From the NCBI GenBank assembly GCA_016208495.1, contig JACQXX010000080.1:62001-126000 (forward strand): a DNA stretch of 64,000 bases, given 5' to 3'. The number at the start of each line of letters is the position of its first letter. The stretch's first letter is position 1. The position numbers and the translations under genes are program-made. The DNA comes from Acidobacteriota bacterium (lineage in GTDB: Bacteria > Acidobacteriota > Blastocatellia > Chloracidobacteriales > Chloracidobacteriaceae). Of this stretch, positions 3 through 47,840 are shown in pieces. Under the pieces are notes generated by a model, which was not told the DNA's origin, made no database searches, and was given only the letters and a program-made list of their open reading frames with translations.

Positions 3-2393
3 CTTGGGTTCTATCTCGATCTGACCGAGTATGTCGAAGACCAGTCGGCCAAAGCGTCGGTGGACGATTCGGCGCGTGGACGGGCGCTCACGTTCACGAT
101 GGCAATGCTCCAGCGCCGGTTTGCCTCCAGCATCAATGCCGTGCGGAGCAGCCTTCAGCGAATGCAGAAAAAACGCCAGGACATCCTGCAGAATCCAGGA
201 AAGTACCGCCAGGAACAAATCGCCAAAAAGATGCCTGAAAATTTTGATGAATTGGAAGAATCAGATCAGCAGCGCATCCTGGATGACCTCGAAGAAGTCG
301 TCGCCACGATTGACCCGACGGCGCTCCGCGAGGAAATCCAGCGGCTGGGGCGCCTGATTGACCAGGCCAATCAGCTTGAACACCGGCAGGCGGAATCAAA
401 ACTCCGCAAGCTCCGCGAACAAATCGTTGAGCAAGGCATCTTTCGCGATCCGAAAATGAAGCTCCTGCTCTTCACCGAGCACAAAGACACGCTTGATTAT
501 CTGGTGACCAAACTCCGGGAATGGGGGCTGACGGTGACGCAGATTCACGGTGGAATGAAAGTCGGGGACCGCGACACGCCCGGCACACGCATCTATGCCG
601 AGCGCGAATTTCGCGAGACCTGCCAGGTGCTGGTGGCGACCGAAGCAGCGGGCGAAGGCATCAACCTCCAGTTTTGCTGGTATTTGATCAACTATGATAT
701 TCCCTGGAATCCGGTGCGGCTCGAACAGCGCATGGGGCGCATTCATCGCTATGGCCAGGAAAAAGACTGTTTGATCTTCAACTTTGTCGCAACCAACACC
801 CGCGAAGGCCGCGTGCTGGCCAAGTTGCTCGACAAGCTGCGTGAAATCCGCGCCGAACTCGGCACCGATCAGGTCTTTGACGTCGTGGGCGAAGTCTTTC
901 CGGCCACGCGACTTGAAAAGATGTTTCGCGAAATGTATGCCCGCAGCCGGACCGAACAGGCGATTACCGACCGCATCATCCAGGAAGTTGACGTCGAACG
1001 CTTCCGCCGCATCACCGGTTCAACGCTGGAAGGGCTGGCCAAAAAGGAACTGAACCTGTCGGCGCTGATTGGCCGCACCACTGAAGCCCGCGAACGTCGG
1101 TTGATTCCCGAAGTCATCGAAGATTTCTTCATCAAGTCGGCGCCGATTTTGGGGCTGCACCCGCGTGAGACCAAAGTCAAATCCCAAATTTACCGGCTGG
1201 GACGGATTCCGCAGCCAGTGGTTCTGGTCGGTGATCGCCTGGAATCGCGCTTTGGCAAAGTCGGTCGTGAATACAAACAGATCACGTTTGACAAAAAGAT
1301 TCTCGAAAAGGACGCCACGCTCGAATGGGTCACGCCGGGGCATCCGCTCTTTGAAGCCGTTCGCGAATACATGGTGGATTTGACCCGTCCGGATTTGAAG
1401 CAGGGCACCGTCTTTTTTGATTTGAATGCCGGGTCGCCCTATCGCCTCGACGTGTTTTCGGCGGCAATACAGGATGGCCGGGGCCACATCCATCACCGCT
1501 GCCTGTTTGCGGTTCAGGTCGAAGTGTCAGGCCAGATGACGATCAAACAACCAACGCTGTTTCTGGATCTGGCACTGGCACCAAAAGGGACACCAGCCCC
1601 GGTGCTTGACCACCTGCCGGGCCGCGACACAACCGAAGGCTTTCTGATCGGCAATGCCCTCCAACCACTGCTCGAAGAAGTGTCAACCCGGCGAAAACGT
1701 GAAATTGCCATCATTTCCGAGCACGTCGAAATCAGTTTGACAACGCTGATTGACAAGCAGAACCTCCAGTACGGCAAGCTGATGGAACTCCAGGCTCAGG
1801 ATGAAAATTCGCCGATGCTGGCCCCCAACCTCAAACAGGTCACCGACCGGATTGACGAACTCAACCGACGGCTTGAAACCCGCCAAAAAGAACTGGCCCA
1901 GGAAGCCCACTGTGTCATCGGCGAAGTCAAATTCCTGGCTTCGGCCTGGGTGGTGCCGCATCCGGAACGCACCGCGCCGGAAATTGCGCCCATGGTTCGG
2001 GATGAAGAAATCGAACGCATCGCGGTCGAGGCCGTGACCGCGTTTGAAGCCGCACGCGGCTGGACGGTTCAGAGCGTCGAAAGCGAGAACAAAGGCTTTG
2101 ACCTGATTTCGCGAAGGTTTGACCCCGACGACCTCAAAACCTGCCTCGAAGCCCGCTTTATCGAAGTCAAAGGCCGTGCCGCCATCGGCGACATTGCGCT
2201 GACGTCCAACGAATACCACACGGCGAAACGGCTCAAAGACGATTACTGGCTCTATGTGGTGTACAACTGCGCGGCCCAGCCTGAGATTCACCTGCTTCAA
2301 AACCCGGCGCAGCTTGCCTGGAAACCGGTGGTCAAAGTCGAGCACTTCTCTTTAGATGCCAAAACAATTTTCACCACAGAGGACGCGGATTAG
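3..2393 (+). CDS. SNF2-type helicase C-terminal part with DUF3883 domain (5' end outside window)
   Basis: The reading frame is already open at base 3, so only the C-terminal ~796 residues are visible and the N-terminal helicase half lies upstream. A long charged helical stretch comes first. The second RecA-like lobe follows with FTEHKDTLDYL, VATEAAGEGINLQF and the motif VI signature QRMGRIHRYGQ, typical of SNF2/RapA-like ATPases. The last ~130 residues look like DUF3883, a PD-(D/E)xK-like fold, with GFDLIS and FIEVKGRA as candidate active-site segments. By family knowledge such proteins translocate on DNA in phage-defence operons. It heads a + strand series with the methylase and the DUF499 ATPase. 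Oddly, the last residues (FTTEDAD) and the TAG stop come from a dispersed repeat running into a heptamer array, so the native C-terminus was probably replaced. The helicase call is firm; the defence role is inferred from context. Confidence 0.88.
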   Translation, partial: LGFYLDLTEYVEDQSAKASVDDSARGRALTFTMAMLQRRFASSINAVRSSLQRMQKKRQDILQNPGKYRQEQIAKKMPENFDELEESDQQRILDDLEEVVATIDPTALREEIQRLGRLIDQANQLEHRQAESKLRKLREQIVEQGIFRDPKMKLLLFTEHKDTLDYLVTKLREWGLTVTQIHGGMKVGDRDTPGTRIYAEREFRETCQVLVATEAAGEGINLQFCWYLINYDIPWNPVRLEQRMGRIHRYGQEKDCLIFNFVATNTREGRVLAKLLDKLREIRAELGTDQVFDVVGEVFPATRLEKMFREMYARSRTEQAITDRIIQEVDVERFRRITGSTLEGLAKKELNLSALIGRTTEARERRLIPEVIEDFFIKSAPILGLHPRETKVKSQIYRLGRIPQPVVLVGDRLESRFGKVGREYKQITFDKKILEKDATLEWVTPGHPLFEAVREYMVDLTRPDLKQGTVFFDLNAGSPYRLDVFSAAIQDGRGHIHHRCLFAVQVEVSGQMTIKQPTLFLDLALAPKGTPAPVLDHLPGRDTTEGFLIGNALQPLLEEVSTRRKREIAIISEHVEISLTTLIDKQNLQYGKLMELQAQDENSPMLAPNLKQVTDRIDELNRRLETRQKELAQEAHCVIGEVKFLASAWVVPHPERTAPEIAPMVRDEEIERIAVEAVTAFEAARGWTVQSVESENKGFDLISRRFDPDDLKTCLEARFIEVKGRAAIGDIALTSNEYHTAKRLKDDYWLYVVYNCAAQPEIHLLQNPAQLAWKPVVKVEHFSLDAKTIFTTEDAD
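2370..2389 (+). repeat. R1 repeat, partial forward copy at the 3' end of the helicase gene
   Basis: The sequence TTCACCACAGAGGACGCGG matches the start of the R1 repeat. It is read in frame as the C-terminal residues of the helicase and abuts the stop codon. Confidence 0.8.
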
Positions 2394-43765: not shown

Positions 43766-43877
43766 ATACCAGTTTGTAGTCAGTAGTCAGTAGTCAGTAG
43801 TCAGTAGTTCACTAAGTTTATTTGATTGAATTACTTGACCGTTTTCTAACACAAGCATTTCATTGCGCAAATGGTAT
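43766..43877 (+). repeat. R3 element, forward copy
   Basis: 112 bp from ATACCAGTTTGTAGTCAG to GCAAATGGTAT, with four TAGTCAG heptamers. Its right end contains an ATG in frame with the zinc-ribbon gene that starts at 43889. Confidence 0.88.
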
Positions 43878-43888
43878 CAGAGATTTTT

Positions 43889-44488
43889 ATGGGTACGATA
43901 CTGATTAAAAATGAAAGCAAACCGCTGAAGTGCGAGATTTGCCACCAAACGGATCTTTTTGATGTTGAAACCCAGGTTTGTCTTCGCTGCAAAGATCTGG
44001 CGAGTGTGCCGTCGGCTTCGAAACCAGTCGAGGCTTTTTCAGGTGAAGATCGGGCCAGTTTTTTCAGGCGATTGAACGGTCACTATCAAACCATCTCTCA
44101 TCAAGAGAGTGTGAGGCGATTGAAAAAACCAGCAACGTTTCACATCAGCGTGGCAACCGTTATTTTCAATGGATTCCTGTTTGTCGTTTTAAAGACTGCT
44201 CTGGCTCTGGTTTTGAGTTCGCCTTCACCAACTTCGATGGCGGTTTTTAGCTTTTTTGCTGTTGTGATAATTGAACTGGCGATTGTTTTTTCAATTCGGC
44301 CAACACAACCAGTGTTGGCCCAGGGAATTTTTACCGGGTTGATCATTAGTTTCTTTTCGCCCTTCATTATTCTGGTGCTTATGGCACTGTTTTATATTCT
44401 TGGGAGGAGCGGAAACATCATGATCTTAACTTTGCTTCTTTTCATCGGTTTTATCCATCTGTTTAAAAAACTTGGGTCATACCGATGA
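43889..44488 (+). CDS. Zinc-ribbon membrane protein, paralogue 1
   Basis: A 199-residue protein. The start ATG 43889 was preferred over an in-frame ATG at 43871, which lies in the R3 element; the paralogues begin with the equivalent of TILIKNESKPLKCEIC. The N-terminal ~60 residues carry a Cys4 ribbon, CEICHQ and CLRC, and the shared segment DLASVPSASKPVEAFSGEDR. Four hydrophobic segments follow (ISVATVIFNGFLFVVLKTAL, AVFSFFAVVIIELAIVF, GLIISFFSPFIILVLMALFY, IMILTLLLFIGFIHLF). It is one of three paralogues in 3 kb; the soluble part is conserved, the membrane part is not. The function is unknown; a membrane-anchored zinc ribbon is what can be seen. Confidence 0.82.
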   Translation: MGTILIKNESKPLKCEICHQTDLFDVETQVCLRCKDLASVPSASKPVEAFSGEDRASFFRRLNGHYQTISHQESVRRLKKPATFHISVATVIFNGFLFVVLKTALALVLSSPSPTSMAVFSFFAVVIIELAIVFSIRPTQPVLAQGIFTGLIISFFSPFIILVLMALFYILGRSGNIMILTLLLFIGFIHLFKKLGSYR

Positions 44489-44491
44489 GGA

Positions 44492-45358
44492 TCAATTCTG
44501 GACTCGATAAAACATTTTCCAGCTTTTATCTGGAAGCTGAATCACCATCGGATCGGCAATTCGGCGACCAGGCATCGGTGCCAGTCGGATTCCAGGTTCT
44601 GCGGTCCAATCCAGCCCGTTGGTTGATATAAAACTTTCAATCGTTCCACCGCGCAGGTTGAAGGCATACAACCGGAACTTTCCGCCTCCGATTTTTAATG
44701 GATTGGCTGGGCGATATTCCTTGAAACCAAAGGGTTTGACGACTTGAAAATTTGTTCCATCCCGACTGGCCGCGATAAACGAACCCTTTTGCTGGTCGAA
44801 CGAAGCCACCACCATCAGCCATTCCTTCCAGCCTTTAAATACATCTCCATCAATCAGTTGCGAAGGCGGAAGAACTTCGTTTTCCTGAGTAAAGTGGACT
44901 CCATCATCTGAAATCGCGCTGAAAATGGTTTGCGAGCCGATTCCATTGAAATAATACAAACGATAGCGACCATCTTTGAGCCGAACCACGCTTGGATCCA
45001 GGGTCTTGGCGACCGTCAGGTTTTGGATGGTCAAATTGAGCGGGGTAAAGGTTTTCCCGCCGTCTTCAGAGATCGCGCAATTGGTTGTTTCCGGCTCTTT
45101 AGTGGCGTCTACATAGTAGAGCAAAATCTTTCCCTCACGCGTCACCACGGCAGTCGGCGCCGACGCATGGTCAAGCAATAACTTCTCGTCATGCGTCCAC
45201 GTCAGGCCATCCGAGCTCGACGCGCTGTAAATTTGATCGAAGTACGGGCCGCCCTCCTGTTGAAAGGCGCTTGCCTGAACAGGTGGTTCCGGTTGAATTG
45301 AACAAAGGTTGATCAGGGTAAAAACAAAGACCAGGGCGATGACACATCTGAAGATCAT
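44492..45358 (-). CDS. Secreted beta-propeller protein (sialidase/GH43-like repeats)
   Basis: A 288-residue protein with an N-terminal signal sequence (CVIALVFVFTLINLC). It may be a lipoprotein, since the Cys is followed by SIQPEPP. Five or so repeats of the kind FDQIYSASSSDGLTWTHDEK, NCAISEDGGKTFTPL and TIFSAISDDGVHFTQENEVL match BNR/Asp-box blades. HDEKLLLDHASAPTAVV and RLKDGRYRLYYFNG resemble five-bladed GH43/GH32-type hydrolases. I do not see a clear catalytic set, so binding of a glycan is as likely as hydrolysis. It is inserted between two zinc-ribbon paralogues on the opposite strand, four bases from the end of the first. Confidence 0.82.
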   Translation of the reverse strand: MIFRCVIALVFVFTLINLCSIQPEPPVQASAFQQEGGPYFDQIYSASSSDGLTWTHDEKLLLDHASAPTAVVTREGKILLYYVDATKEPETTNCAISEDGGKTFTPLNLTIQNLTVAKTLDPSVVRLKDGRYRLYYFNGIGSQTIFSAISDDGVHFTQENEVLPPSQLIDGDVFKGWKEWLMVVASFDQQKGSFIAASRDGTNFQVVKPFGFKEYRPANPLKIGGGKFRLYAFNLRGGTIESFISTNGLDWTAEPGIRLAPMPGRRIADPMVIQLPDKSWKMFYRVQN

Positions 45359-45536
45359 GGAGGTTTCCTCCGGCGAGAAATTTGGTTGGAAGCAAAGGAG
45401 TGAGAATGGGTGATATGGTTCTCACAACGGTTTCCTGACTGGTATTTGGTCAGTCCAGTTTTGAGTTTGTTTTGAGTTGACAGACCCCCGAGTGTCTGGG
45501 CAGGATGTGGCAAGCCGGGATGAATGTTCTGGTTTA

Positions 45537-45605
45537 AAATCAGTCAGCAGTCAGTAGTCAGTAGTTCAACAGATGTATTCGGTGGGATTACGCAACAGTC
45601 TCATT
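45537..45605 (+). repeat. R3 element, partial copy
   Basis: AAAATCAGTCAGCAGTCAGT and TAGTCAGTAGTTCAACAGAT resemble the left part of R3; the right end is missing. It lies upstream of the second zinc-ribbon gene. Confidence 0.55.
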
Positions 45606-45646
45606 TTAAAGGATATTGAGCTTCTCTATTCCATCTGGAGTCACCG

Positions 45647-46240
45647 ATGAACCAGTTGATCATTAAAACCGAAGGGAAACCGATTAAATGCGAGATTTGC
45701 CATCAGTCAGACGTCTTTGACGTTGCAACCCAGGTGTGTCTTCGTTGTCGGGACTTGGCGAGTGTGCCGTCAGCCTCAAAGCCGGTTGAGACTTTTTCAG
45801 ATGATGAGCGAGTCAGCTTTTTCAGACGAGTGAATCGTCAGTACCAGGTCACTCGTCAGGAAGAAATTCCCATTGAGCAGAAACATGCGCCTTTTCATAT
45901 CACGGCGCTCACCTTTTTTCTCAACTGGTTTCTTTTTGGAGTGTTCCAACTGGGGTTCAATTTGGTTATTCCGTCATCTTTTGGAGAGTCTGGATGGTTA
46001 GCAATTTTCTGTTTTATAGCATTTACATTCGTTGAATCGGTGGTCGCTTATTTCATTCAATCTGATTTCCCAGTCCTCGCAAAAGGCGTCTTCAATGGCT
46101 TGATTTTTTTCTATGTCTCGCCTTTTTTGTTTATGCTCCTGCTGGTTGGATTTTCTTTACTGGGAGTCATGGGCAGTTGGGTTATCTTGTTGACTGGCAT
46201 TGTTGGGGTGTGGCTTTACATTTTAAATGAGTATAAATAG
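45647..46240 (+). CDS. Zinc-ribbon membrane protein, paralogue 2
   Basis: A 197-residue protein starting MNQLIIKTEGKPIKCEICHQ after a TGGAGT ribosome site. The N-terminal Cys4 ribbon (CEIC...CLRC) and DLASVPSASKPVETFSDDER are nearly identical to paralogue 3 at the DNA level for about 190 bases. The rest consists of four hydrophobic segments, such as ITALTFFLNWFLFGVFQLGF, LAIFCFIAFTFVESVVAYFI and LFMLLLVGFSLLGVMGSW, and matches the paralogues only loosely. Its role is unknown. The small soluble head shared by all three should be the part that meets a common partner. Confidence 0.82.
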   Translation: MNQLIIKTEGKPIKCEICHQSDVFDVATQVCLRCRDLASVPSASKPVETFSDDERVSFFRRVNRQYQVTRQEEIPIEQKHAPFHITALTFFLNWFLFGVFQLGFNLVIPSSFGESGWLAIFCFIAFTFVESVVAYFIQSDFPVLAKGVFNGLIFFYVSPFLFMLLLVGFSLLGVMGSWVILLTGIVGVWLYILNEYK

Positions 46241-46355
46241 CCTTGAACCCAGCTTTAAATATTTGTTTACAATAAGGTTATTCGTATATTACCGGAGTTT
46301 CCCATCATCACAACAATGATATTTTTGAGTAAATGAAAGGAAAGCTGGAATGTGA

Positions 46356-46886
46356 ATGAACCAGTTGATCATTAAAATCGAAGGGAAACCGATTAAATGC
46401 GAAATTTGCCATCAGTCAGACGTCTTTGACGTTGCAACCCAGGTGTGTCTCCGGTGTCGGGATTTGGCGAGTGTGCCGTCAGTCTCAAAGCCAGTTCAGG
46501 CTTTTTCAGGTGAAGATCGAGTCAGCTTTTTCAGACGCTTGAATGCCCAATTTGAAGACTCAGTACAGCAAGAAAAAGCCATTGAACAGGAAGCTCTTAA
46601 AAGTAGTGACTTTGTCTTTCTTCTTTCTCTGTTAAATCTTGGGGTTTTCATTGGGGGTTCTGCTTTTTTCGCAGTTCTATTTCGATCCTCGGAAGGTTTT
46701 AACTGGACTGTATACTGGATGCTGGTGCTTTTAATCATTGAAGTAATCATTGGAGTTTTAATCAAACACCGACATCCTTTTCTTGCAAAAGGATTTATCT
46801 TTAATGGAGTTCTTTTTATCGTCTCGATTCCAGTTGGAATTGGTTTGATGCATTTCTATCTCTGGCTTGCCTGGCGGAACCTGTGA
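46356..46886 (+). CDS. Zinc-ribbon membrane protein, paralogue 3
   Basis: A 176-residue protein beginning MNQLIIKIEGKPIKCEICHQ, preceded by AAGGAAAG. The ribbon and RDLASVPSVSKPVQAFSGED follow the family pattern; after about residue 65 the sequence diverges. Three hydrophobic segments are visible (FVFLLSLLNLGVFIGGSAFF, YWMLVLLIIEVIIGVL, NGVLFIVSIPVGIGLMHFYL). It is shorter than the other two. It is in tandem with paralogue 2 (115-base gap), and a possible promoter-like TTGTTT-N16-TATATT lies between them. Confidence 0.82.
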   Translation: MNQLIIKIEGKPIKCEICHQSDVFDVATQVCLRCRDLASVPSVSKPVQAFSGEDRVSFFRRLNAQFEDSVQQEKAIEQEALKSSDFVFLLSLLNLGVFIGGSAFFAVLFRSSEGFNWTVYWMLVLLIIEVIIGVLIKHRHPFLAKGFIFNGVLFIVSIPVGIGLMHFYLWLAWRNL

Positions 46887-47263: not shown

Positions 47264-47602
47264 TCACAGGTTCAAAATCAGCCGCAAGCCTTCATCAACT
47301 TTTTTCATTTTGGGAGCTGGAAGTGTTGAGACGAAATCTCGAAGCAGCTTTTTGTCCACGGTGACAACCTGGGAGACATTCACGACCGAATCTTTCGATA
47401 ACCCGGTTTCCTGAAGGCTGACCTGTACATTCCCTGGCGCCGTGGCCAGCGCCAGATTGGAGGTCAAAATCGCGATGATGACAGTGTTGATTTGGCTGCG
47501 GTTGAACGAATCCGTCTAAATCACCAGCACTGGCCGAATGTCACCTGGGCCCGACCCAACCGGAGGCGGCAGACTTGCCCACCATATTTCGCCGCGTTTC
47601 AT
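47264..47602 (-). pseudogene. mazF: MazF/PemK-family toxin gene with an in-frame amber codon
   Basis: MazF toxins are sequence-specific mRNA endonucleases. The gene starts at ATG 47602, one base after the mazE-like stop, as usual for these operons. The first 28 codons encode MKRGEIWWASLPPPVGSGPG and DIRPVLVI. Codon 29 is TAG (47516-47518), where relatives have Gln. The same frame continues intact: TDSFNRSQINTVIIAILTSN, LALATAPGNVQVSLQETGLS, VVNVSQVVTVDKKLLRDFVS. A single C-to-T change (CAG to TAG) therefore truncates an otherwise complete 112-residue toxin. It is a recent nonsense mutation, or less likely a readthrough codon. Confidence 0.87.
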
Positions 47603-47603
47603 C

Positions 47604-47840
47604 CTACCACTCCTCCTTGGGCAGGATTTCACTCTGGGCCTGAAGCCAGGCCGGATCAATCGCGGATGGTTGGGTTGAATAGATTGCGTCGAGGTGTTTG
47701 GTAATTTCCGCCTGGCGCTGTTCGTCCAGAAACTGCTTGAGCGCCTGGGCATACAGCTCGCTTCGGCTGAGGTTATGCTGTTCGGCATACACTTCAGCTT
47801 GTTTGAATAAGGTATCTGGAATTGAAATTGCGGTTTTCAT
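47604..47840 (-). CDS. MazE/RHH-type antitoxin
   Basis: A 78-residue protein, MKTAISIPDTLFKQAEVYAE. The N-terminal ribbon-helix-helix (AISIPDTLFKQAEVYAEQ, SRSELYAQALKQFLDEQ) is the DNA-binding and dimer part. The C-terminal tail (AWLQAQSEILPKEEW) should thread into the toxin. It lies directly upstream of the damaged mazF, and the genes are separated by one base. It is expected to autoregulate the pair. The antitoxin is intact while its toxin is truncated, like hicB at 2640. Confidence 0.87.
   Translation of the reverse strand: MKTAISIPDTLFKQAEVYAEQHNLSRSELYAQALKQFLDEQRQAEITKHLDAIYSTQPSAIDPAWLQAQSEILPKEEW

Follow-up and report, generated by a model that had tools for sequence, protein, structure and literature searches.

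A four-cysteine head on divergent membrane proteins of an acidobacterial order and its proximity to a ubiquitin-like pathway

The ubiquitin operon of Caldiarchaeum subterraneum (PMC5654768) encodes ubiquitin, an activating enzyme (E1), a conjugating enzyme (E2) and a small RING protein, srfp, as ligase (E3), with Rpn11 adjacent; bacterial neighbourhoods of E1, E2, ubiquitin-like protein (UBL) and JAB genes are described by Iyer et al. 2006 (PMC1779556), and CBASS Cap2/Cap3 (PMC10097602) provides a further comparison. This study focused on three tandem genes within a window of 64,000 nt (the whole stretch of DNA that was analysed, from an Acidobacteriota bacterium of the order Chloracidobacteriales) and on the short domain with four cysteines, here called the head, which their three predicted membrane proteins have in common with a small protein encoded beside a UBL gene. 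At odds slightly better than even (a probability of roughly 0.55), the head would be a docking module through which diverse membrane proteins are linked to a single UBL pathway.

Like the Caldiarchaeum operon, this pathway has clustered genes for a ubiquitin-type modifier with residues after Gly-Gly, for E1, E2 and JAMM, and for a small (here predicted) zinc protein. The srfp protein is a two-zinc RING, whereas the partner found here has a single site of four cysteines, in most cases a predicted transmembrane (TM) segment, and as many as 44 relatives encoded at other places of the genome. E1, E2, UBL and JAB chemistry is shared with the Iyer-type neighbourhoods, with CBASS Cap2/Cap3 and with Bil; unlike these, the present pathway occurs in all 14 genomes of its order that were examined, has separate E1 and E2 proteins, and combines a fixed head-bearing small protein with a large, dispersed head family. 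A literature search that covered few subscription papers found no description of the head family or of a UBL pathway in Chloracidobacterium.

Head genes beside a ubiquitin-like pathway

Fifty-eight genomes were searched with a head profile of 36 residues (consensus FxIKxExLPxRCEICHQxDxFDPxTGxCxRC; counts are at an E-value of 0.001 or better unless stated otherwise). The head was found in 14, all of one order (14/14) and made up of 10/10 genomes of the window's family, its own genome included, and 4/4 of a second family, and in 0/44 other genomes of the class. In each of the 14 a gene for a small head-bearing protein ends 18–96 nt before the UBL start, and in 13 the E1 frame ends 3–628 nt upstream of the head frame, the contig ending there in the fourteenth (G002). 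The arrangement varies in detail: in a genome of the genus Chloracidobacterium, the gene between the ThiF-type E1 and the UBL specifies a protein with a C-terminal head; the second family has the order E1, head, UBL, E2, and in two of its four genomes JAMM comes next; and in the window's genome E1, head and UBL lie on contig 28 and E2 and JAMM on contig 72. The UBL and the UBC-type E2 each gave one match per genome in 14/14 genomes of the order and in 0/44 elsewhere in the class, the UBLs being 78–87% identical to that of the window's genome. A JAMM homologue is likewise present in 14/14, with one each in the Chloracidobacterium-genus genomes; the single-copy statement covers UBL, E2 and JAMM. 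Near the E1 locus as well as the E2 locus of the window's genome (L212, L030) there are tandem repeats whose translation reads RNPEPGT.

Profile and fold searches agree on what the four pathway proteins probably are. ThiF (PF00899) was matched at E 4e-50 and 4e-47 in the two E1s scanned, and the PDB profile matches of E1 were best to UBA7 and the SUMO E1 and also included Uba1 and MoeB. Three of the four UBLs scanned exceeded the Pfam cut-off for Rad60-SLD, and against the PDB ubiquitin was aligned together with the RGG, the best single-domain match being at E 8e-4; RGG is present in 14/14, at the exact C-terminal end in three and followed by 1 to 21 residues in 11. Each of the 60 PDB profile matches of the E2 at E 1 or better is to an E2 (best 3e-4), with the cysteine, invariant in the 14 genomes, aligned in both alignments shown, and all 50 entries listed by Foldseek for the E2 model are E2s or E2 complexes by title. 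The JAMM isopeptidase motif HTHPGFGVFMSGTD occurs in 14/14, and Pfam JAB (PF01398) was over its cut-off in both proteins scanned. Parts of E1, E2 and JAMM are also matched by the PADLOC models E1-E2, E2, BilD, JAB and BilC. A search for the proteasome family PF00227 gave two matches, one strong and one weak, in 13/14 genomes. A 20S proteasome is not demonstrated by these, because the same family also matches in Escherichia coli and Bacillus subtilis, where we take the protein to be HslV.

A short motif may be common to several of these proteins. Most heads begin [FLI]-x-[IV]-[KR]-x-[EQ], and F-x-[IVL]-[KR] occurs in the E2 tail in 14/14, with a second copy near the E2 end in 13/14; JAMM starts with M[TK]F-x-I-K in 14/14, and the E1s of the order, judged by eye, have the motif near the N-terminus in five of seven aligned, L174 (of the Chloracidobacterium genus) and L182 being without it. 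The background rate was 17 in 16,296 residues. The motif was recognized in hindsight and its orthologous copies are not independent, so it is a lead only, a strand that might bind some partner in common, for instance the UBL. In a distant acidobacterium (L271:912-1442 and 1447-1950, minus strand), JAMM begins MEIRIK and E2 ends near VVIRLK, which resembles the F-x-I-K found at these same ends in the order.

The head family and its anatomy

The number of head copies per genome is 45, 42, 16, two in each of seven genomes, then 4, 39, 12 and 17, a total of 189. The 45 belong to the window's genome (47 at E 0.01), so that the profile search and family count proposed by the sequence-only reading gave a far larger family than its three paralogues. 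The seven two-copy genomes form one genus, Chloracidobacterium, with genomes of 2.8–3.7 Mb, and one of their two heads is the operon copy. Across a sample of the phylum, with at most 19 candidates scored per genome, 7/396 genomes matched the head at 1e-5, all of this order. One narrow peptide pattern, run over 84,980 genomes, gave 124 stretches and 85 relatives; the best 80 of these 85, at 79 loci, were taken further and are titled Blastocatellia, Chloracidobacterium or Acidobacteria, with the single exception of a metagenome-assembled genome that carries the label Actinomycetota and has contigs named WN_Acidobacteria. In viral contigs a pattern-limited scan produced 53 pattern matches and no relative among them, and plasmids searched with the operon head protein gave no match.

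For the anatomy of the family, removal of duplicates from 298 open reading frames (ORFs) left 157 distinct head ORFs, some of them cut by contig ends and together not covering all 189 copies; 156 heads were tabulated, one being dropped as too short at its start. The head begins no later than residue 20 in 140/157 ORFs, and 132 of those 140 have a TM segment predicted by hydropathy after the head, with a median linker of 40 residues. In a minority of members a hydrophobic segment comes first, at the N-terminus, and the head lies at the C-terminal end. All four cysteines are present in 156/156 tabulated heads, although C-x2-C-H was itself used to locate them, and four cysteines plus one histidine are invariant in 93 aligned heads. 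Near-invariant residues among the 156 include the arginine before the first cysteine (153), a glutamine (154), an aspartate (155) and the arginine before the last cysteine (155). A 42-residue head model was predicted with confidence (pLDDT 90), and we infer that the head would bind zinc through its two cysteine pairs. Lysine and arginine in the 15 residues before the first TM segment, compared with those after it, were more numerous in 79, fewer in 27 and tied in 26 of 132 proteins; because of this excess, an approximate measure, a head on the cytosolic side of the membrane is favoured by the positive-inside bias. The tails are far more diverse, 136 of them falling into 85 clusters (blastp, 1e-4) and 43 from the window's genome into 26; ankyrin repeats occur in 9/116 scanned members, and no Pfam family of non-ankyrin type in more than three. 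At L014:2937-3850 a normal head gene lies beside a degenerate head copy (CPVCHQPDTCDSQTGVCRTC).

Comparison with known zinc fingers gave no clear relative. In the Pfam scan of 116 members, no zinc-finger family matched more than three of them, the matches being DZR_2 in three (best E 7.5e-4) and FYVE, NOB1, Zn_ribbon_15 and HypA in one each, without distinction between the head and a second cysteine pair of some members as their source; the head also found no match among PDB profiles (best E 0.19). Matches in NCBIfam and PADLOC were for the most part to models of ankyrin type. MJ0042-type fingers (zinc_ribbon_4/_5) stand at the N-terminus of many myxobacterial proteins, such as GltJ. They are like the head in being short N-terminal zinc fingers on many unrelated, often membrane, proteins, and unlike it in spacing; they were rejected as a family assignment, being absent from the matches of the window proteins and from the 25 Pfam families matched by the 116 members (E 0.01). 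NZF fingers share with the head a length of about 30 residues, four cysteines and a ubiquitin context, but have x10 spacing, compared with x12 in the head, and no Pfam match to them was above cut-off: PF00641 (the RanBP2 finger) reached 12.9 of 27 bits (E 0.07) on window protein 1, and did not match proteins 2 and 3.

A proposed docking role and its alternatives

Since the head is found both on the protein whose gene always accompanies that of the UBL and on dozens of membrane proteins, a shared pathway partner is the simplest inference, and the presence of a single UBL, E2 and JAMM against 2–45 head proteins suggests an adaptor or E3-like role; by analogy, this ratio resembles that of enzymes to E3s in ubiquitin systems. 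In the mechanism proposed here, a four-cysteine head with one site, used throughout one acidobacterial order and lying on the cytosolic side of the membrane, would be attached to membrane or ankyrin-repeat tails of widely differing kinds and would bring them to the E1, the RGG-ended UBL, the UBC-type E2 and the JAMM protein. The heads may bind E2 or UBL and act as E3-like adaptors, so that tagging of, or from, membrane proteins would be directed. Tandem copies would share heads through conversion or head duplication while their tails diverge, keeping the docking surface constant as the targets differ. A bolder extension, which we hold to be doubtful, is that the order has an expanded, membrane-centred UBL network in which a single UBL, E2 and JAMM, with E1, are served by up to about 45 dedicated membrane adaptors, the head being a minimal E3-like class unrelated to RING and diversified by head-only recombination. 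To our knowledge, most ubiquitin-like systems of bacteria serve in defence and have few targets; a pathway carried on the chromosome, kept throughout an order and provided with dozens of dedicated membrane partners would, if true, be an independent case of adaptor expansion of the eukaryotic type.

Several observations weigh against a docking role. The window trio lies far from the pathway genes, Chloracidobacterium has two heads only, and the co-occurrence of UBL, E2 and head is all inside one order and thus counts as one phylogenetic contrast; distant JAMM matches occur in two of the other 44 genomes, which belong to other families. The short motif was not enriched at other N-termini in the window's genome (seven matches, against four in the control). 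A RING needs eight Cys/His ligands and two zincs and was rejected for the head, which has four cysteine ligands, and the head model matched no solved fold significantly in Foldseek, the weak list (best E 2.3) being dominated by small ribosomal zinc-finger proteins, of uS14 type to judge from chain titles. As to the pathway proteins, the best NCBIfam models for E1 are ThiF/MoeB activators of sulfur carriers, all under cut-off; the UBL of the window's own genome is below the Rad60-SLD cut-off; and the E2 reaches 18.7–20.7 of the 27 bits for UQ_con, under the Pfam cut-off, with a model of low confidence (pLDDT 58, template-modelling score about 0.4).

A similar cluster also exists without the head. 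The E2 profile found distant relatives in six sampled genomes outside the order, and in one other acidobacterium (G219) E1, a small gene, E2 and JAMM stand in a row with no head; the small gene, at the place of the UBL, ends GGLR. The phylum sample searched with the head, which equals that of the E2 search in size and is presumably the same set of genomes, listed matches in the order only. Because the cluster of E1, E2 and JAMM occurs without it, the head seems to have been added to a pathway that already existed. Beside the G219 cluster, L270:2536-3330 (minus strand) encodes a protein of 264 aa that begins with a hydrophobic segment and has a CxC...CxxC stretch towards its C-terminus; it may be an analogue of the head protein. 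JAMM and E2 profile matches also adjoin at G017 C132:14117-15803, in a genome that has no head matches and comes from a different family of the class.

It could also be that the head proteins are clients of the pathway whose fate tagging would decide, the head either binding the UBL non-covalently, as do NZF fingers and SUMO-interacting strands, or being the site of UBL attachment. We consider this unlikely, though the strongest of the competing explanations: the strand-like start of the head is partly common to E2 and JAMM and resembles the SUMO site psi-K-x-E, and the weak PF00641 match would fit a UBL-binding finger. That match is, however, far under its cut-off and the cysteine spacing C-x2-C-x12-C-x2-C is not that of NZF, while at the lysine position 65 of the 156 heads have K and 48 have R, so that this lysine cannot be the acceptor in all heads and the psi-K-x-E acceptor reading is weakened. 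N-terminal zinc ribbons are common on bacterial membrane proteins, and the head could be a generic, lineage-specific example, serving oligomerization or metal or redox sensing, with its adjacency to E1 and UBL incidental. The tails, in their 85 clusters, have no common function, and neither do the neighbours of members have a frequent common family (107 of 128 selected ORFs around members of the window's genome, scanned with Pfam, gave 130 families, none in more than five ORFs). Against this improbable reading, the linkage of head and UBL is kept in 14/14 genomes across two families, one of the heads in each of the seven two-copy genomes is the operon copy, and E2 and JAMM share the motif.

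The sequence-only reading had likened the genes to effector or immunity families, and a constant head with a fast-changing tail, in tandem arrays with homogenized heads, would suit a conflict family, as would the PADLOC matches of E1, E2 and JAMM and the 9/116 members matching Ank-type secreted effector models of NCBIfam and also the PADLOC models PDC-M72A, Ankyrin and MzaA. We read these last matches as due to the ankyrin repeats, and they say little beyond the repeat itself. As weak evidence against a conflict system, no toxin or secretion theme is seen among the 25 commonest of the 130 neighbour families; UBL and E2 occur once in each of the 14 genomes rather than sporadically, and neither the viral-contig scan nor the plasmid search gave a relative. 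The likeness to effectors is not supported by these results and is held to be very improbable; a ubiquitin-like pathway fits the context better.

The tandem trio of the window

The features of the trio are collected in Table 1; the start codon of gene 1 may be either 43871 or 43889.

Table 1. Coordinates of the three head genes and their parts within the window.
Feature	Position	Strand	Remarks
Head protein 1, 199 aa	43889..44488	+	Head with four cysteines; linker; 4 TM segments predicted by hydropathy
Head domain of protein 1, residues 1-36, C-x2-C-x12-C-x2-C	43889..43996	+	
Head protein 2, 197 aa	45647..46240	+	3 hydropathy-predicted TM segments
63-codon tract of gene 2, 93% identity with gene 3	45647..45835	+	Head 45647-45754 plus linker
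Diverged membrane tail, protein 2	45836..46240	+	
Head protein 3, 176 aa	46356..46886	+	3 hydropathy-predicted TM segments
63-codon tract of gene 3, 93% identity with gene 2	46356..46544	+	Head 46356-46463
Diverged membrane tail, protein 3	46545..46886	+	

The sequence-only reading had described the first ~190 bases of genes 2 and 3 as nearly identical, the rest as unlike, and gene 1 as built on the same plan, and all of this was borne out. A direct repeat of 189 nt begins at 43889, 45647 and 46356, with identities to the middle copy of 74%, 100% and 93%. A change-point scan over the codons of genes 2 and 3 placed a break after residue 63, with 0.22 differing positions per codon up to there and 1.50 beyond; third positions alone break at the same residue (0.13 differing before, 0.60 after), and in either measure 0/2000 permutations reached such a break. 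The conserved tract thus exceeds the four-cysteine head, including the linker to residue 63, and identity starts at the ATG, blocks upstream matching at 9–12 of 27–30 positions. Nonsynonymous (dN) and synonymous (dS) divergence, taken for head and tail separately as had been suggested, were 0.01 and 0.21 in the first 36 codons and 0.51 and 1.06 in the remainder. Given the break and this contrast, divergence along the genes is not uniform, uniformity having been named beforehand as fatal to the idea of a split. The description as three paralogues with divergent tails needs amendment: the tails are diverged, yet those of the trio form one blastp cluster and are homologous (38–41% amino acid identity in genes 2 and 3), and the family is about 45 strong in the genome.

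Because the first dS table was restricted to pairs whose heads shared 80% identity or more, a selection bias, 29 adjacent pairs (same locus, same strand, less than 2 kb apart, complete ORFs) were compared by the proportion of synonymous differences (pS). The head was below the tail in 25/29 (medians 0.54 and 0.73), with 4/29 opposite, a smaller effect than in the first table. Head pS was under 0.4 in nine of the 29 pairs and tail pS never under 0.5, although tail pS is near saturation by default, many tail pairs being only 21–30% identical. Homogenization was strongest in a trio on contig 17, the window pair and an array on contig 47. Pairs from different loci of the window's genome had a median head pS of 0.81 (838 pairs; 5th percentile 0.62), and a 204-aa orthologue of the Chloracidobacterium genus showed head below tail in only 8/21 comparisons, so that heads have no consistent codon-level deficit. 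The gene conversion of heads that had been suggested is therefore upheld in part: the data support homogenization of tandem heads, either by conversion limited to the head or by head duplication onto other tails, which fits equally. Positive selection on the tails was not shown, dN/dS in the tail of the window pair being below 1 and many other tail dS values saturated.

Short AGTCAGT tandem repeats precede gene 1 (43771-43834) and gene 2 (45542-45591). Between these two genes, 44492-45358 on the minus strand encodes a BNR/GH32-like, probably secreted protein, its Pfam matches being under cut-off, and downstream of the trio, at 47264-47840 (minus strand), lies what we take to be a MazE/MazF-like pair, the toxin-like ORF of which seems, by eye, to be split over two frames.

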